Of a stretch of 64,000 nucleotides of DNA, positions 1-51,086 are shown piece after piece; position 1 is the first letter of the stretch; each line of letters opens with the position of its first letter. Origin of the DNA: Miltoncostaea oceani (lineage in GTDB: Bacteria; Actinomycetota; Thermoleophilia; Miltoncostaeales; Miltoncostaeaceae); the NCBI RefSeq assembly GCF_018141545.1, contig NZ_CP064356.1:1935001-1999000 (forward strand), written 5' to 3'. The position numbers and the translations under genes were made by a program. Below the pieces are notes generated by a model. It had not been told where the DNA came from. It saw only the letters and a program-made list of their open reading frames with translations, and ran no database searches.

Positions 1-601
1 CCCGGCCGGCCCGCACGGCCGCGCCGTCATCGAGGTCGACGCCGCGCGCCGGCCGCCCGGAGATGCGGGCGACGGCGCCGGGGACCCGCTGGACGCCCGC
101 GGCGTCGCAGGCGGCCGTGAGCGCCGCCAGCAGGGCCCGCGGCTCCACCTGGTGCTCGCGCGGGAGGTCGAGCCCACCCGCCGACGACGGGGCCAGCCCC
201 GGCTCCACCGCCCGCAGCCGCGAGCCGGACGACCAACCGGGGTCCTCGCCCCACTCCCGGAGCGTCGCGTGGCGACGGCGGACCTCCCCGAGGTGCTCGG
301 GACGCGACGCCCCCAGCACCGCGCCGGAGCGCCGGAGCCCGGGGTCGCGCGCTGCGTCCGCGGCGAGCGCGTCGGCCGTGGCCGGCCAGGCGTCGAGGGC
401 GCGCACCATCAGGTCGTGGAGCGGGCGCTCGCGCTCGTCGGCCTCCGCCCACGGCCCGAGCATGCCGGCGGCCACGTGCGCGGCGGGCGGGCGGCCGTCG
501 TCGACCACCACGACCCGGGCGCCCGCGCGGGCCGCCCTCCACGCGGTCATCAGCCCCCAGGGGCCCGCCCCCACCACGACGATGTCGGCTGCCGCGCTCA
601 G
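1..601 (-). CDS. thiO: Glycine oxidase ThiO, FAD-dependent (partial, C-terminus beyond window)
   Basis: Last visible gene of the thiamine operon. The family oxidises glycine to the imine used in thiazole synthesis. The frame opens with an FAD-binding motif, VVVGAGPWGLMTAW (residues 8-21), followed by the AAGMLGPWAEA stretch typical of ThiO. No ATG, GTG or TTG lies upstream in frame, and the first internal ATG would remove the FAD motif. The best start is the CTG at 601-599, which overlaps the TGA of the preceding gene as CTGA, so translational coupling is likely. The gene runs off the window start; about 200 residues are visible. A general D-amino-acid oxidase is possible, but the operon favours ThiO. 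Confidence 0.82.
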   Translation of the reverse strand, partial: MSAAADIVVVGAGPWGLMTAWRAARAGARVVVVDDGRPPAAHVAAGMLGPWAEADERERPLHDLMVRALDAWPATADALAADAARDPGLRRSGAVLGASRPEHLGEVRRRHATLREWGEDPGWSSGSRLRAVEPGLAPSSAGGLDLPREHQVEPRALLAALTAACDAAGVQRVPGAVARISGRPARGVDLDDGAAVRAGR

Positions 602-36539: not shown

Positions 36540-37712
36540 CTACCCGACGAGCTTCGCGATCCGGTCGGCGGCCTCGTTCAGGCGGTCGTCCGGGACGGTG
36601 AGGCTCATCCGCACGAATCCCTCCCCGCTGGGGCCGTACGCGGCGCCCGGGGAGATGACCACGGCGGCCTCCTCCAGCACCTTCTCCGTGAACGACGCCG
36701 ACGTCTCGCCGTCCGGCACCCGCGCCCACACGTAGATCGCGCCCTTCGGGGGATCGACCCGCAGGCCGATCCGCTGCAGGGCCCCGACGAGGACGTCGCG
36801 GCGGCGCTGGTAGATCGCGCACATCTCCGCCACCGACGACTGGTCCGAGCGGAGCGCCGCGGCGGCGGCCTCCTGCAGCGCCTCGAACATGCCGCTGTCG
36901 ATGTTCGTCTTCAGCTGCCAGTACGCGGCGACGAGGTCGGCGTTGCCGACGACGGCGCCCGCCCGCCACCCCGTCATGTTGTACGTCTTCGACAGGGAGA
37001 AGATCTCGATGCCGACGTCCATCGCCCCCGGCGTCTCCAGGAACGACGGCGCCCGGTACCCGTCGTACGTGATCTCCGAGTACGCGTTGTCGTGCACGAT
37101 GATGATGTCGTTCGCCCGCGCGAACGCGATCGCCCGCTCGAAGAAGTCGTCCTCGATCACGCCACCCGTCGGGTTGTTCGGGTAGTTGAGGAACATGACC
37201 CGGGCGCGCGCCGCGACGTCGGCGGGGATCGCCGTCAGGTCGGGCTGGAAGCCGAGCTCCGGCAGCAGCGGCATCGGCACCGGCTCCGCACCCGCGAGCA
37301 GCGGACCCGTGGTGTAGACGGGGTAGCCGGGGTCGCTCGCCAGGGCGACGTCGCCGGGGTCGAGGAACGCCAGGTTGACGTTCGCCACCGCCTCCTTCGC
37401 GCCCATCGCCGGGATGATCTGCGTCCCCGGGTCGAGGGACACGCCGAATCGGTTCGCGTAGAAGCCGGCGATCGCGTCGCGGAAGCTCTCGCGCCCGCGG
37501 TTCGACGGGTACTGGTGCGTGTCGGGCCGGAGGACCTGCTCGCGCAGGGTCTCGACGACGAAGCCGGGTGTCGGCGTGTCGGGGTCGCCGATGCCGAGCG
37601 AGATCACGTCCACTCCCGCGGCCTTCTTCGCCGCGATCTTCTGCTCGATCTGCGCGAACAGGTACGGGGGGAGCCGGCGGAGCCTCTCGGCGCCGACGGC
37701 GCGGCCCGTCAG
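36540..37712 (-). CDS. dapL: LL-diaminopimelate aminotransferase-like, class I/II
   Basis: 390 residues, PLP-dependent. The N-terminus AERLRRLPPYLFAQIEQKIAAKKAAGVDVISLGIGDPDTPTP and the PLP-lysine loop SLSKTYNMTGWRAGAVVGN fit the DapL group, which makes LL-diaminopimelate directly from tetrahydrodipicolinate. Its place beside dapF supports this. No ATG/GTG/TTG precedes the conserved N-terminus in frame; CTG at 37712-37710 overlaps the dapF stop as CTGA and is the only suitable start. Confidence 0.85.
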   Translation of the reverse strand: MTGRAVGAERLRRLPPYLFAQIEQKIAAKKAAGVDVISLGIGDPDTPTPGFVVETLREQVLRPDTHQYPSNRGRESFRDAIAGFYANRFGVSLDPGTQIIPAMGAKEAVANVNLAFLDPGDVALASDPGYPVYTTGPLLAGAEPVPMPLLPELGFQPDLTAIPADVAARARVMFLNYPNNPTGGVIEDDFFERAIAFARANDIIIVHDNAYSEITYDGYRAPSFLETPGAMDVGIEIFSLSKTYNMTGWRAGAVVGNADLVAAYWQLKTNIDSGMFEALQEAAAAALRSDQSSVAEMCAIYQRRRDVLVGALQRIGLRVDPPKGAIYVWARVPDGETSASFTEKVLEEAAVVISPGAAYGPSGEGFVRMSLTVPDDRLNEAADRIAKLVG

Positions 37713-38524
37713 AGCTCCTCCAACGCGCGCACGAGCTCCGGGGACAGCGCGCCCCGGTAGATCTCCTCGGCCGGACCGGTCATCGTCACCTCCAGGTCGT
37801 CGCCGACGGCGATCTCCAGATCGCCGCCCGCGAGGTGAACCGTCACGGGGCTGGTCAGCCCCCCGAGCCGCACCGCGGCGACGGCCGCGGCGCACGCGCC
37901 GGTGCCGCACGCGAGCGTCTCCCCCACGCCCCGCTCCCACACGCGCATCGTCAGCTCCGACGGGCCCTCGGCCCGGACGAACTCGACGTTGGTGCGCTCC
38001 GGGAACCGGGCGTCGGTCTCGATCGCCGGCCCGAGCGCCCGCACCACGGACGACGGGTCGGGGTGCTCGATGATCGCGTGGGGGTTGCCCATCGACACCT
38101 CGGCGAACTCCACGCCGTCACCGGCGACCGCGAGGGTCTCGCGGGCCTCGCCGGCGGGGAACCGCGCCCGGCCCATCCGGACCTCGACGCGATCGTCGTC
38201 GAGCACCGCCACCTCCACCGGGCCGCCACCGGTGAGGATGCGGCCGTCGGCGGGCAGGCGCCCCGCGTCGCGCAGGTGGAGGGCGATGATGCGGATGCCG
38301 TTGCCGCAGTTCTCGGCCTGGCTGCCGTCGGGGTTCCAGACGGTCATGCGCGGCGTCCCGTCGTCCTCGTGGGAGACCTCGAGGATGCCGTCACCGCCGA
38401 CGCCGAACGCCGGGTCGAGGATGCGCTGGGCGCGTGCGGGGGTGATGGGCAGCGCCCAGTCGGTGCGCTCGACCACCAGGTGGTGGTTGCCCAGCCCCTG
38501 CCACTTCGCGAAGGGGAGGCTCAT
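37709..38524 (-). CDS. dapF: Diaminopimelate epimerase
   Basis: 271 residues. Converts LL- to meso-diaminopimelate for lysine and peptidoglycan. The two catalytic cysteines lie in AENCGNGIR and LACGTGACA. The N-terminus FAKWQGLGNHHLVVERT replaces the usual GNDF with GNHH. ATG 38524 overlaps the miaA stop (ATGA), and its stop overlaps the CTG of dapL. Confidence 0.94.
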   Translation of the reverse strand: MSLPFAKWQGLGNHHLVVERTDWALPITPARAQRILDPAFGVGGDGILEVSHEDDGTPRMTVWNPDGSQAENCGNGIRIIALHLRDAGRLPADGRILTGGGPVEVAVLDDDRVEVRMGRARFPAGEARETLAVAGDGVEFAEVSMGNPHAIIEHPDPSSVVRALGPAIETDARFPERTNVEFVRAEGPSELTMRVWERGVGETLACGTGACAAAVAAVRLGGLTSPVTVHLAGGDLEIAVGDDLEVTMTGPAEEIYRGALSPELVRALEEL

Positions 38525-39444
38525 CCCCCGGAGGGTACCGGATCGCCCGGCCCGCCCTCCCACAGGGCGAGCAGCCGCGGCAGGGCCTCCTCCGCCGGCG
38601 CATCGCCGAGGTCGAGGGTCACGAGCCCCGGCGTCTTGCGGAGCCACGTCAGCTGCCTGCGCGCGAGGCGGCGGGTGCGGGCCGCGAGGCGGTCGGGCAG
38701 CTCCGCGGGGTCGAGCGCGCCCGCGCGGACAGCGGCCACCTCCCGCGCTCCGATCACCTGGAGCGCCTCACGCGACACGCCGGGGGTGTCGAGCGCCCGC
38801 GCGAGCTCGTCGACGAGGCCCTCGTCGAGCTCCCGCCGCACGCGGGCGGCGATGCGCGCGTCGAGGACCTCCCGGGGGCGGACGACGGCGACGAGCAGGG
38901 TCGGCCGGCGCGTCGACCCGCTCCACAGCCGGTCGCCGCCCCCGGCGCCACCCGCCGCGGCGAGCTCCAGCGCCCGGGCGACGCGCCGCGGGTTGGCCCG
39001 GTCGACGCGGTCCGCGGCCGCGGGGTCGCGGGCCCGCAGCTCCGCGAGGGCCGCCGGCGGGTCGGCCGCGGCGAGGTCCTCCGCCCACGCGCGCACCCCC
39101 GGGTCCGCCTCGGGGGGGAAGTCCAGATCGGCGACCGCGGCGCGCAGGTAGAGGCCGGTGCCCCCGCTCACCACCGGCGTGCGGCCCGCCGCGAGGGCCG
39201 CGTCGACCGCCGCGTGGGCGAGCGCCGCGAACCCCGCCGCCGTGGACCGCTCCGTCAGGTCCAGGTCACCGGCGCCGTGGTGCGGCACCGCCGCGCGCTC
39301 GCCGGGACGCGGCGCGTCGGCGGCGATCTCCAGCCCCCGGTACCGCTGGAAGGGGTCGGCGACCACGATCTCGCCGCCGAGCGCGCGGGCCGCCGCGAGG
39401 GCGAGGGCGCTCTTTCCGGACGCCGTCGGCCCGGCCAGGGCCAG
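38521..39444 (-). CDS. miaA: tRNA dimethylallyltransferase MiaA
   Basis: 307 residues. Transfers dimethylallyl to A37 of tRNAs. The ATP-binding loop LALAGPTASGKSALALA must be included, followed by VADPFQRYRGLEI and VVSGGTGLYLRA. No ATG, GTG or TTG lies in frame before the P-loop; an internal GTG at 39366 would delete it. CTG 39444-39442 (13 bases past the miaB stop, preceded by GAGG) or CTG 39438 is therefore the likely start. It works with MiaB upstream in the same pathway. Confidence 0.88.
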   Translation of the reverse strand: MALAGPTASGKSALALAAARALGGEIVVADPFQRYRGLEIAADAPRPGERAAVPHHGAGDLDLTERSTAAGFAALAHAAVDAALAAGRTPVVSGGTGLYLRAAVADLDFPPEADPGVRAWAEDLAAADPPAALAELRARDPAAADRVDRANPRRVARALELAAAGGAGGGDRLWSGSTRRPTLLVAVVRPREVLDARIAARVRRELDEGLVDELARALDTPGVSREALQVIGAREVAAVRAGALDPAELPDRLAARTRRLARRQLTWLRKTPGLVTLDLGDAPAEEALPRLLALWEGGPGDPVPSGG

Positions 39445-39457
39445 GACCTCGGGTCGC

Positions 39458-40795
39458 TCAGGCGGGGACGAGGTCCGCCTGCACGGGGGCGCCGACCTGA
39501 CGGCCGGACAGGGTGGTGGACGTCGACCCCTCGATCACGACGTCGACGAGCGTCCCGGGCGCCGCCGTGCCCGTGAAGTTGACGGCGATGTTGTGGCGGA
39601 GGCGGCCGCGCAGGCGCGTGGGGTCGGTGCGGGACGGGCCCTCGACGAGCACCTCGCCGGTGGTGCCGACGAACCGGGCGGCCCGTGCGGCCGCGGTGCG
39701 CTGGGTCACCTCGATCAGCCGGCCGATGCGCTCCCGCTTCACCTCCGGCGGGACGTCGTCGGGGAGGTTCGCCGCCGCCTCCGTGCCGGGCCGCGGCGAG
39801 TACAGGAAGGTGTACGCCCCGTCGTAGCCGACCTCCTCGACGAGCGAGAGGGTGTCGGCGAAGTCCTCCTCCGTCTCACCGGGGAAGCCGACGATGAGGT
39901 CGGTGGTGAGCGACAGGTCGGGGATCGCGTCGCGCAGGCGGCCGACGAGCTCCAGGTACCGGTCGCGGCTGTAGGTGCGGCGCATCGCCTTGAGGATCCG
40001 CGTGCTGCCCGACTGCGCCGGCAGGTGCAGGTGCTCGCACACCTCGGGGCACTCGGCCATCGCCGCGATGACGTCGGCCTTCATGTCCTTCGGGTGGGGG
40101 CTGGTGTACCGGACCCGGGCGATCCCCTCGACGCCGGCGACGGCGCGCAGCAGGCCGGCGAACGTCTCGCGCCCCTCGCGGGGCAGGTCCCGTCCGTAGG
40201 AGTTGACGTTCTGGCCGAGCAGGGTGATCTCGACGACCCCGTCGGCGGCGAGGGCCCGCGCCTCCGCCACCACGTCGGCGGGCGGGCGGCTGCGCTCGCG
40301 GCCGCGCACGCTCGGCACGACGCAGTAGGCGCAGACGCAGTTGCACCCCACGGACATCTGCACCCACGCCTGGTGGGGGCGCTCCCGGCGGGACGGCAGG
40401 CTGCCGCTGAAGGCGCCGTCGAAGCTGAACGCCCCGACCGCCTCGATGCGCTCCCGCGCGACGAGCTCCCCGAGGCGGGCGACCTCGCTCGGCCCGAACG
40501 CGATGTCCACGAACGGGAACTCGCGGAACACCTCCTCCTTCATGCTCTGGGCCCAGCAGCCGCCCACGGCGACCACCGTCGACGGCCGCTCGCGCTTCAC
40601 GCGCTTCGCGTCACCGAGGTTGCCGAGGAAGCGCTCGTCGGCGCTGCCGCGGATGGTGCAGGTGTTGAAGAGGATGAGGTCGGCGTCGTCGCGCCGCTCC
40701 ACGGGCGCGTACCCGAGGCCCTCGAGGAGGCCCCGCATCCGCTCGGAGTCGTGGTCGTTCATCTGGCACCCGAAGGTGGTCAGGTGGTAGCGCAC
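39458..40795 (-). CDS. miaB: tRNA-2-methylthio-N6-dimethylallyladenosine synthase MiaB
   Basis: 445 residues. N-terminal UPF0004 domain with TTFGCQMN, NTCTIRG and GGCWAQ cysteines for one Fe-S cluster. The radical-SAM cluster motif is CNCVCAYC, and a TRAM domain lies at the C-terminus. Methylthiolates i6A37 made by MiaA. GTG 40795 lies six bases after a TAGGAT -10 box, so the miaB-miaA-dapF-dapL-dut transcript may be leaderless. Confidence 0.95.
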   Translation of the reverse strand: MRYHLTTFGCQMNDHDSERMRGLLEGLGYAPVERRDDADLILFNTCTIRGSADERFLGNLGDAKRVKRERPSTVVAVGGCWAQSMKEEVFREFPFVDIAFGPSEVARLGELVARERIEAVGAFSFDGAFSGSLPSRRERPHQAWVQMSVGCNCVCAYCVVPSVRGRERSRPPADVVAEARALAADGVVEITLLGQNVNSYGRDLPREGRETFAGLLRAVAGVEGIARVRYTSPHPKDMKADVIAAMAECPEVCEHLHLPAQSGSTRILKAMRRTYSRDRYLELVGRLRDAIPDLSLTTDLIVGFPGETEEDFADTLSLVEEVGYDGAYTFLYSPRPGTEAAANLPDDVPPEVKRERIGRLIEVTQRTAAARAARFVGTTGEVLVEGPSRTDPTRLRGRLRHNIAVNFTGTAAPGTLVDVVIEGSTSTTLSGRQVGAPVQADLVPA

Positions 40796-48665: not shown

Positions 48666-51086
48666 CTACGCCTCGTCGTCCTCCTCGGCCTCCGGGGACC
48701 GGCGCAGGATGCGGTCGACGTCGCCGGCGCCCACCAGGACGGTGCGCGGCTTCGACCCCTCGTGGCCCGACACGATCCCCATGCGCTCCATCGCGTCCAC
48801 GAGGCGCCCGGCGCGGGCGTAGCCCACGCCGAGGCGGCGCTGCAGCAGCGACACCGACGCGGTGCCCTGCTCCACCACCATGTCGATGGCCCGCTCGATC
48901 ATGTCGTCGGCGTCGGCGTCGACGGGGTCGTCGACCGGCTCCGGGCGCTCCATCAGCTCCTGGCGCATCTGGGGCTTGCCCTGCGCGCGCCAGTGGTCGG
49001 TGATCGCGAGGATCTCGTCCTCGCCGACGTACGCGCCCTGCAGGCGCTGCAGGCGCGACGTCCCGACGGGGCGGAACAGCATGTCGCCGTGGCCGAGCAG
49101 CGACTCCGCGCCGCCGGCGTCGAGGACGACGCGCGAGTCGACCTGGGACGACACCGCGAACGCGATCCGCGACGGGACGTTCGCCTTGATCATGCCGGTG
49201 ATGACGTCCGCCGACGGCCGCTGCGTCGCGAGGACGAGGTGGATGCCGACCGCCCGGCTCTTCTGGGCGAGGCGGATGATGGAGTCCTCCACCTCGGCGG
49301 GCGAGACCATCATCAGGTCGGCGAGCTCGTCGATGACGACGAGGATCGTCGGCATCGGGGGCTCACCGGACGCCGCCCGCGCCTCGTTCCAGTCGCGCAG
49401 GTTGCGGGCCCGCTTCATGCCCATCAGCTCGTAGCGGGTCTCCATCTCGCGGACGATGTTGGAGAGGACCGCCGCGGCGTCCTTCATGTTCGTGACCACC
49501 GGCGTGAGCAGGTGCGGGATGCTCTCGTAGTGGTTGAGCTCGACCTTCTTCGGGTCGATCAGGATCATCTTCAGGTCCTCGGGCGTGGACCGCAGCAGCA
49601 CCGAGGCGAGCAGGGCGTTGAGGCAGACGCTCTTGCCGGTGCCGGTCGAGCCGGCGATCAGCAGGTGCGGCATCTTCGCCAGGTCGATGTAGACGGGCTT
49701 GCCGCCGAGGTCGAGGCCCAGCCAGGCCATCAGGGGGCCCGCGTGGGCGGGGAACTCCCGGGTGATGTCCCCGAGCGTCACGAGCGAGGCCTCGGGGTTC
49801 GGGACCTCGACGCCGACGGCCTGCTTGCCGGGGATCGGGGCGATGATCCGCAGCTCCTCCCGCGACGCGAGCGCGTACGCCAGGTCGTCGCGGAGCGCCG
49901 TGATCCGGCCGACCTTCGTGCCGGGGGCGAGCTGGAGCTCGTAGCGCGTGACGCGGGGACCGCCGACCGTGTCGGAGACCTTCGCCTCGATGCCGAAGTG
50001 CCCGAGGGCCTCCTCCAGCAGGCGGCTCGTGCGCTGGATCAGCTCCTCCGGCTGGCTCGTCGGGCCGCTGGAGCGCTTCAGGAGGCTGAGCGGCGGGCGG
50101 CGGTACGCCACGCCGGTGCGGGCGCCGCGGACGGTGCGCTCCGGCTCCGGCGCCGGGGCGAACACCTCGAGGTCGGGCGCCTCCTCCGCCAGCCCGAGCT
50201 GCTCGACCGGCTCGGCGTGGGCCGGTGCCGGCGCGGGGGCGAGGGCGACGGCCGCCGTCAGCGGGGTCGCGGTGCGCGGGAGGATCTCCTCCTCCACGTG
50301 CTCGCCCACCAGGGCGGGCGACGGCGGCATGCCCGACGGGCCGTCGAAGAGGTCGGAGAAGGCGTCGGCGCCGTCCACGAGCGGCCGGGCGGCCGCGAGC
50401 CGGGCACGCCGGCGCCCGATCAGGGTGGGCGGCTCGATCGCGTCGATGCGCTCCCGCACGCCGCGGACCGTGGCGGTGGTCGCGGTCGTCGCGACACGGC
50501 CGACCTGGCGGGAGGCGACCACGGCGCCCTCCCCCCCGCGCCGCACCGCGACGCCGAGGGAGGCCCCCGAGATCAGGACGACCGCCGCGATCAGGCCGAC
50601 GAGCACCAGCAGCGCGGTGCCGAACCCGCCGACGGTGCTGCTCGTCGCCCAGTAGCCGAGCTCGCCGATGTAGCCGCCGCGGCCGCCGAGGCCGTCGTCG
50701 AACCACGACACCCGCTCGGTGCCGCCCGTCCCGAGGCTCCCGCCCGCGAGGGCGACCAGCAGCGCGAACGCGCCGATGCCGACGCCGAGGCGCAGGGGCC
50801 GGGCGGCGAGCAGCGGGTGGTCGAGGATCAGCGCGATGCCGACCAGGATCAGCGTCAGGGGGGCGAGGGCGACCGCGCGGCCCACGAGCAGGCGCAGCCC
50901 GTCCTCGAGCCACCCGCCGACCGGGCCGGCGCCGAAGCCGAGGAAGAGGGAGACGGCGAGGAACACGCCGAGGGCGACGAGGCCGAGGCCGATCAGCTCG
51001 CGCGTCTGGGCGTCGTTGCGCGACCCGCGGCCCGCGGGCTTCGCGGGGCGGCGGCGCCGGCTCGAATGGGCGACCTGCGTGCCGAT
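48666..51086 (-). CDS. ftsK: DNA translocase FtsK/SpoIIIE
   Basis: About 806 residues. Four membrane segments at the N-terminus, a variable linker, then the motor: VYIDLAKMPHLLIAGSTGTGKSVCLN (Walker A near 478), ILVVIDELADLMM (Walker B), and a C-terminal gamma winged helix (LLQRRLGVGYARAGRLVDAMERMGIV). Moves chromosomes at division. The conserved N-terminus SRNDAQTRELIGLGLVALG has no ATG/GTG/TTG before it in frame. An AGGAGG site lies six bases before ATC 51086-51084, the likely start. GTG 50966 would cut the first membrane helix and lacks a ribosome-binding site. Confidence 0.9.
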   Translation of the reverse strand: MGTQVAHSSRRRRPAKPAGRGSRNDAQTRELIGLGLVALGVFLAVSLFLGFGAGPVGGWLEDGLRLLVGRAVALAPLTLILVGIALILDHPLLAARPLRLGVGIGAFALLVALAGGSLGTGGTERVSWFDDGLGGRGGYIGELGYWATSSTVGGFGTALLVLVGLIAAVVLISGASLGVAVRRGGEGAVVASRQVGRVATTATTATVRGVRERIDAIEPPTLIGRRRARLAAARPLVDGADAFSDLFDGPSGMPPSPALVGEHVEEEILPRTATPLTAAVALAPAPAPAHAEPVEQLGLAEEAPDLEVFAPAPEPERTVRGARTGVAYRRPPLSLLKRSSGPTSQPEELIQRTSRLLEEALGHFGIEAKVSDTVGGPRVTRYELQLAPGTKVGRITALRDDLAYALASREELRIIAPIPGKQAVGVEVPNPEASLVTLGDITREFPAHAGPLMAWLGLDLGGKPVYIDLAKMPHLLIAGSTGTGKSVCLNALLASVLLRSTPEDLKMILIDPKKVELNHYESIPHLLTPVVTNMKDAAAVLSNIVREMETRYELMGMKRARNLRDWNEARAASGEPPMPTILVVIDELADLMMVSPAEVEDSIIRLAQKSRAVGIHLVLATQRPSADVITGMIKANVPSRIAFAVSSQVDSRVVLDAGGAESLLGHGDMLFRPVGTSRLQRLQGAYVGEDEILAITDHWRAQGKPQMRQELMERPEPVDDPVDADADDMIERAIDMVVEQGTASVSLLQRRLGVGYARAGRLVDAMERMGIVSGHEGSKPRTVLVGAGDVDRILRRSPEAEEDDEA

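Follow-up and report, generated by a model that had tools for sequence, protein, structure and literature searches.

CTG as a likely minor start codon at dapL and other genes of Miltoncostaea oceani and its relatives

In the 64,000-nt stretch of the Miltoncostaea oceani genome analyzed here (the window), two closely spaced genes, dapL and miaA, lack a usable ATG, GTG or TTG where their conserved proteins begin, and each presents a CTG there. The best explanation, which we regard as likely, is that this genus and its family truly use CTG as a start codon, though a minor one. The CTG of dapL is very probably its real start. There is good reason to believe that miaA also has a non-canonical start, and the CTG at 39444 is the best candidate for it, with the odds slightly in its favor. 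We take this to be a real and repeated use of a start codon already known to be rare, which may or may not be special to the family.

The start of dapL in the window and across the family

The genes miaB, miaA, dapF and dapL follow one another in this order on the minus strand. The dapF gene (37709..38524 (-), diaminopimelate epimerase, TIGR00652) begins with an ATG that shares bases with the miaA stop as ATGA, and both DapF and MiaB score above the NCBIfam cut-offs. Counted from the CTG, dapL (36540..37712 (-)) encodes an LL-diaminopimelate aminotransferase of 390 aa, an enzyme that serves the synthesis of lysine and of cell-wall precursors, identified by NCBIfam NF006756 (E 2.1e-169) and by its relatives; residues 8-388 of this protein match positions 5-385 of the 387 in the profile. 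The candidate start codon (37710..37712 (-), first base 37712) overlaps the dapF TGA (37711-37709) as CTGA, just as the first-pass annotation of this DNA had described. A GGAGG Shine-Dalgarno-like site (37717..37721 (-)), identified from the sequence and its duplex with the 16S tail, lies four bases 5' of it. Upstream of the CTG the frame runs for 136 codons without a stop. Locally it contains no ATG, GTG or TTG; three in-frame GTG codons are found further up, within dapF, at 37895, 37910 and 37940 (61, 66 and 76 codons upstream). The first canonical codon downstream is the GTG at 37613, 33 codons on, and a start there would remove the conserved N-terminus of DapL. Because C is the most common base before TGA in the window genome, G000 (185/334 TGA-ending genes), a CTG in the dapF-dapL register is not rare by itself. 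The weight of the case rests on the missing alternative start and on recurrence in relatives, not on the register alone.

Our search for dapL covered 42 genomes from the order, every one a member of family f1, and we examined the 30 best dapL loci, one per genome. In all 30 junctions the TGA of dapF shares bases with an NTG that is in frame with dapL, giving GTGA in 15, ATGA in nine and CTGA in six. The window junction thus fits the four-base-overlap register of the family, and its CTG stands at the site where 24 of the 30 junctions have ATG or GTG. No canonical dapL start was found nearby in five of the six CTGA genomes (G000, G019, which is a syntenic genome of the same genus, G018, G017 and G015), and G018 has none in its entire dapL open frame; the sixth, G006, has an ATG two codons after the CTG. 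The 10 dapL loci read from outside the family all present a canonical start near the core. On a DapL tree of 36 rows, the CTG state requires five changes by parsimony, at least three of which are forced by well-supported branches. Since the CTGA species represent at least three state changes, a sequencing error at dapL is very unlikely. The comparison of dapL starts in relatives, which the first-pass annotation had proposed as a check, thus gives CTG initiation good support.

The sequence around the overlap is also informative. In four genomes (G000, G019, G018 and G017) dapF ends in CTC-TGA, and this CTC persists although one silent change to CTG-TGA would yield GTGA, a stronger start. All five CTGA species without a near alternative present a strong Shine-Dalgarno-like stretch (GGAGG or GGGGGAG). 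The duplex energy between the 16S tail, whose 3' end was observed in G020, and the 20 bases upstream is -9.3 kcal/mol for dapL of the window. The mean for the six CTG junctions (-9.2 kcal/mol) is similar to that of the GTG junctions (-9.6) and stronger than that of the ATG junctions (-6.8).

The start of miaA

Upstream of miaA lies its partner miaB (39458..40795 (-), TIGR01574, E 8e-138). Counted from the CTG, miaA spans 38521..39444 (-) and encodes a tRNA dimethylallyltransferase (TIGR00174, E 5.8e-46), residues 3-278 of which match positions 4-284 of the 288 in the NCBIfam profile. The first-pass annotation was right to place this CTG (39442..39444 (-), first base 39444) 13 bases beyond the miaB TGA (39460-39458). 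It had also claimed that neither gene has an in-frame ATG, GTG or TTG upstream. This is strictly true of miaA in the window, where none occurs between the preceding in-frame stop (39537, 31 codons before the CTG) and the P-loop, and of dapL in G018; it is true of dapL in the window only locally, given the three GTG codons within dapF. The first canonical codon downstream of the miaA CTG is the GTG at 39366, 26 codons on and past the P-loop, and no NTG codon other than CTG 39444 is suitably placed.

Several properties of this codon differ from those of its dapL counterpart. At 13 bases past the miaB stop, it lies outside the NTGA register, and it does not stand at the position of the ATG or GTG present in relatives: the GTG of G020 is located one codon before the CTG position, where the window has GTC, and that of G019 nine codons before. 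CTG 39444 has no Shine-Dalgarno sequence at the usual spacing; a GAGG lies just two bases upstream. In addition, the codons for P-[EQ]-V that precede the CTG look conserved in relatives, as might be expected if the start lay higher up. Because of this conservation and of the Shine-Dalgarno spacing, the exact miaA start codon in the window is assigned with modest confidence only.

Our family sample comprised 40 miaA loci from 39 genomes. In six of them the open frame holds no canonical start at all (G000, G021, G010, G009, G025 and G026), and G010, G009, G025 and G026 present a CTGA on the miaB stop. The comparison of miaA starts proposed by the first-pass annotation thus supports a non-canonical start and leaves the exact codon in the window less certain. 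In genus g12, CTGA is found on the miaB stop in 19/19 loci; at the Val codon six codons later, 17 loci have a GTG as well, and the other two have GTC or GTT. The 17 loci with both codons may use either as their start. Among the other families of the class, none of the 22 readable miaA loci lacks a canonical start (eight further control loci were fetched and dropped, as the P-loop pattern was unmatched), and the difference between 6/40 and 0/22 is not significant (Fisher p = 0.08).

Non-canonical starts at other genes

We extended the search to 859 kb of G000 and 400 kb of G019, with 800 kb of G165 (family f7) and 400 kb of G102 (family f3) as controls. Genes were called by codon usage and flagged when no canonical start occurred before a point about 16 codons into the coding signal. 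The raw rates are alike in the genus (G000 20/736, G019 8/336) and the controls (G165 16/677, G102 7/274). We scanned 50 of the 51 flagged genes against Pfam and retained, by a rule chosen after seeing the output, those whose profile match began no later than position 6 and preceded the first canonical codon by 8 residues or more. Seven genes pass in G000 (coaE, ydhR-like, maf, rsfS, epimerase, gmk and miaA), four in G019 (epimerase, ApbA, coaE and Rrf2) and two in the controls (dnaG of G165 and RidA of G102). This leaves 11/1072 genes without a canonical start in the genus vs 2/951 in the controls (p = 0.025), with rows that are not independent, since G000 and G019 share two of the families. 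Eight genus rows present a CTG, as against no accepted control row (p = 0.008, from an unblinded reading). The control RidA also presents a CTG and was read as a likely frameshift, its ATG-led frame being one base off. dapL itself fails the Pfam rule (its domain begins late) and passes by NCBIfam. Pairwise scans of ortholog onsets proved too noisy and were replaced by these filters; their many false flags came from wrong frames and from upstream DNA that is itself conserved.

The thiO-like gene, whose body leaves the window, has its CTG (599..601 (-)) in a CTGA overlap in both G000 and G019, and its next canonical codons fall within the first strand. A CTGA is also found at the NAD epimerase of G019 and, with no near alternative, at 2501802 in G000 and at 1644463 and 1498998 in G019; an apparent CTGA start at about 1794767 in G000 was rejected, a GTG being present some 14 codons on. 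In the ligD-like gene of G000, the 3'-phosphoesterase profile TIGR02777 starts at residue one of the CTG-led protein, and maf counts as another genus gene with a CTG or other non-canonical start. Other cases lie away from any upstream stop: the Rrf2-type regulator presents CTG-ATC after purine-rich, Shine-Dalgarno-like leaders in G000 and G019, and the ydhR-like gene of G000 presents a CTG after a similar purine-rich stretch. A CTG with its own Shine-Dalgarno sequence implies that coupling is not required. The first-pass annotation had suggested that CTG initiation is tolerated under translational coupling; the initiation itself is supported, but the restriction to coupled genes is too narrow for these regulators and the ydhR-like gene.

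Some genes point to codons other than CTG. The ftsK/spoIIIE-like gene of the window (48666..51086 (-)) has no ATG, GTG or TTG for 40 codons, and its best start candidate is an ATC six bases after AGGAGG; the same is seen in G019 after CGGAGG. The coaE genes (L154:3029-3727 (+), L184:7421-8131 (-)) have no canonical start in either G000 or G019, share a conserved G-rich stretch (GGGGGGG) located after the upstream stop and ahead of the P-loop and, in G019, have no NTG near the start. The conserved N-terminus of gmk in G000 (L159:8378-8953 (-)) has neither a canonical codon nor a CTG, so that ACG or another codon may be used; gmk of G019 starts with GTG. Likewise, rsfS may start at a codon other than its CTGA. 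In the control G165, dnaG (L244:12702-13736 (-)) seems to start at an ATC after the Shine-Dalgarno-containing GGGAGGGAGGA. Separately, the TPR, EAL and AbgT frames of G000 (L155:12615-13592, L285:8424-9389, L287:4124-5182 (+)) begin inside their domains, as if frameshifted or truncated.

Initiation at CTG and alternative explanations

We propose that a ribosome ending dapF at its TGA, aided by the GGAGG four bases upstream of the CTG, would restart on this overlapping codon. The ordinary CAU initiator tRNA would read the CTG, forming a C:U mismatch at the first position of the codon, and the DapL product would begin with fMet. miaA would most probably start likewise at CTG 39444, just past the miaB stop. 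Initiation at these codons, the level of expression and the role of coupling are our inferences. With the anticodon left free, all 33 matches to an initiator tRNA pattern read CAT; they were found in 30/42 genomes, the pattern needing a GGG/CCC stem and thus missing stem-less variants in a search that left 12/42 genomes without a match. None of the 33 matches thus departs from the CAU anticodon, and infC, whose start is frequently unusual in other organisms, begins here with an ordinary TTG. Neither the initiator anticodons nor the infC start gives any sign of a changed initiation machinery. As a separate observation, part of the initiator tRNA-Met gene is repeated 5.3 kb away in G000 (L190/L193, exact through the 3' end) and its middle part 7.3 kb away in G019 (L192/L189); these repeats are reminiscent of att sites, as for an element integrated into tRNA-fMet.

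Several other explanations must be weighed against CTG initiation. dapL could start at one of the GTG codons 61-76 codons upstream, which are in frame without an intervening stop and which gene finders limited to three codons might select; the protein would then carry an N-terminal extension with the CTG as an internal Leu codon. This is highly improbable: the open frame of G018 offers no canonical start at all, stops or a separate ATG or GTG stand exactly at the overlap in many relatives, and DapL profiles begin just after the CTG. For miaA, there is a more serious chance, though one we rate below even, that the start is not CTG 39444 but GTC or another unusual codon upstream, or that the frame is entered by frameshift or readthrough from miaB. 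The P-[EQ]-V codons vary by synonymous changes in relatives, GAGG is a mere two bases from the CTG, and the GTG of G020 stands exactly at the GTC of the window; yet the 31 upstream codons hold no canonical codon, no CTG occurs among the 22 codons inspected before CTG 39444, and the family profile begins at the CTG-led residues. Errors of assembly or sequencing that mask ATG or GTG starts might be suspected in a GC-rich genome in which some flagged genes look frameshifted (the TPR, EAL and AbgT fragments). The first-pass annotation had named a base error as what would refute it, but independent genomes share the dapL CTG (G000, G019, G018, G017 and G015) and the missing miaA start (G000 and G021), which makes this explanation extremely improbable.

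The remaining alternatives bear on how widespread such starts are. Every GC-rich member of the class could have non-canonical starts at the same frequency, with gene finders hiding them, in which case the family would not be special. This is plausible, if not what we favor: the raw flag rates are alike and dnaG of a control seems to start at ATC, whereas the Pfam rule, post hoc and applied to non-independent rows, leaves an excess in the genus, one of the two control genes is a likely frameshift, and no accepted control row has a CTG. Conversely, the family might have relaxed its start-codon check through a change in the ribosome, IF3 or IF2, so that CTG and partly ATC would be regular minor starts in and out of coupled operons, at about one percent of genes, with CTG as the fixed miaA start of genus g12. 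We consider this unlikely. The reading that we retain is CTG as a genuine but minor start codon of the genus and family.

If CTG starts recur at conserved genes, then 5' ends would be systematically wrong in annotations of this lineage, and MiaA, whose next canonical codon falls after the P-loop, would be an example of the damage. The family would also offer a natural system to ask why CUG is rejected elsewhere. Among bacterial start codons this one ranks close to the bottom, and it is never proposed by a common gene finder: according to its description, Prodigal leaves CTG out of its start codons (PMC2848648), so that the first-pass annotation rightly expected such starts to be missed. CUG is cited as 0.024% of bacterial starts and as very weak in E. 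coli, at 0.86% of AUG (both as cited in PMC11497404), and a selection in M. smegmatis is reported not to enrich CTG (0.03%; PMC4633059). A reconstruction of starts in 36 genome triplets, with 68,906 ancestral starts, reports that four had switched to CUG, two from AUG, one from GUG and one from UUG, from annotations that may not look for CTG (PMC5622118).

We recognized no report for this lineage in the literature on CTG or CUG starts in bacteria, and the closest known systems lie elsewhere. NCBI code table 11 permits CTG as a start. The ATGA, GTGA and TTGA overlaps of termination-reinitiation are like dapF-dapL in geometry, with a Shine-Dalgarno sequence inside the upstream gene; the dapL start differs from them in beginning with C, a weak initiator in the bacteria so far tested. 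The rare bacterial CUG starts involve the same codon and the same ordinary CAU initiator tRNA, but here the same site recurs in several species of one family. Finally, proteomics of Deinococcus deserti, another GC-rich bacterium, reportedly revealed non-canonical ATC and CTG starts, a pair comparable to ftsK and dapL here; those starts were demonstrated by peptides, whereas ours are proposed from sequence comparison.
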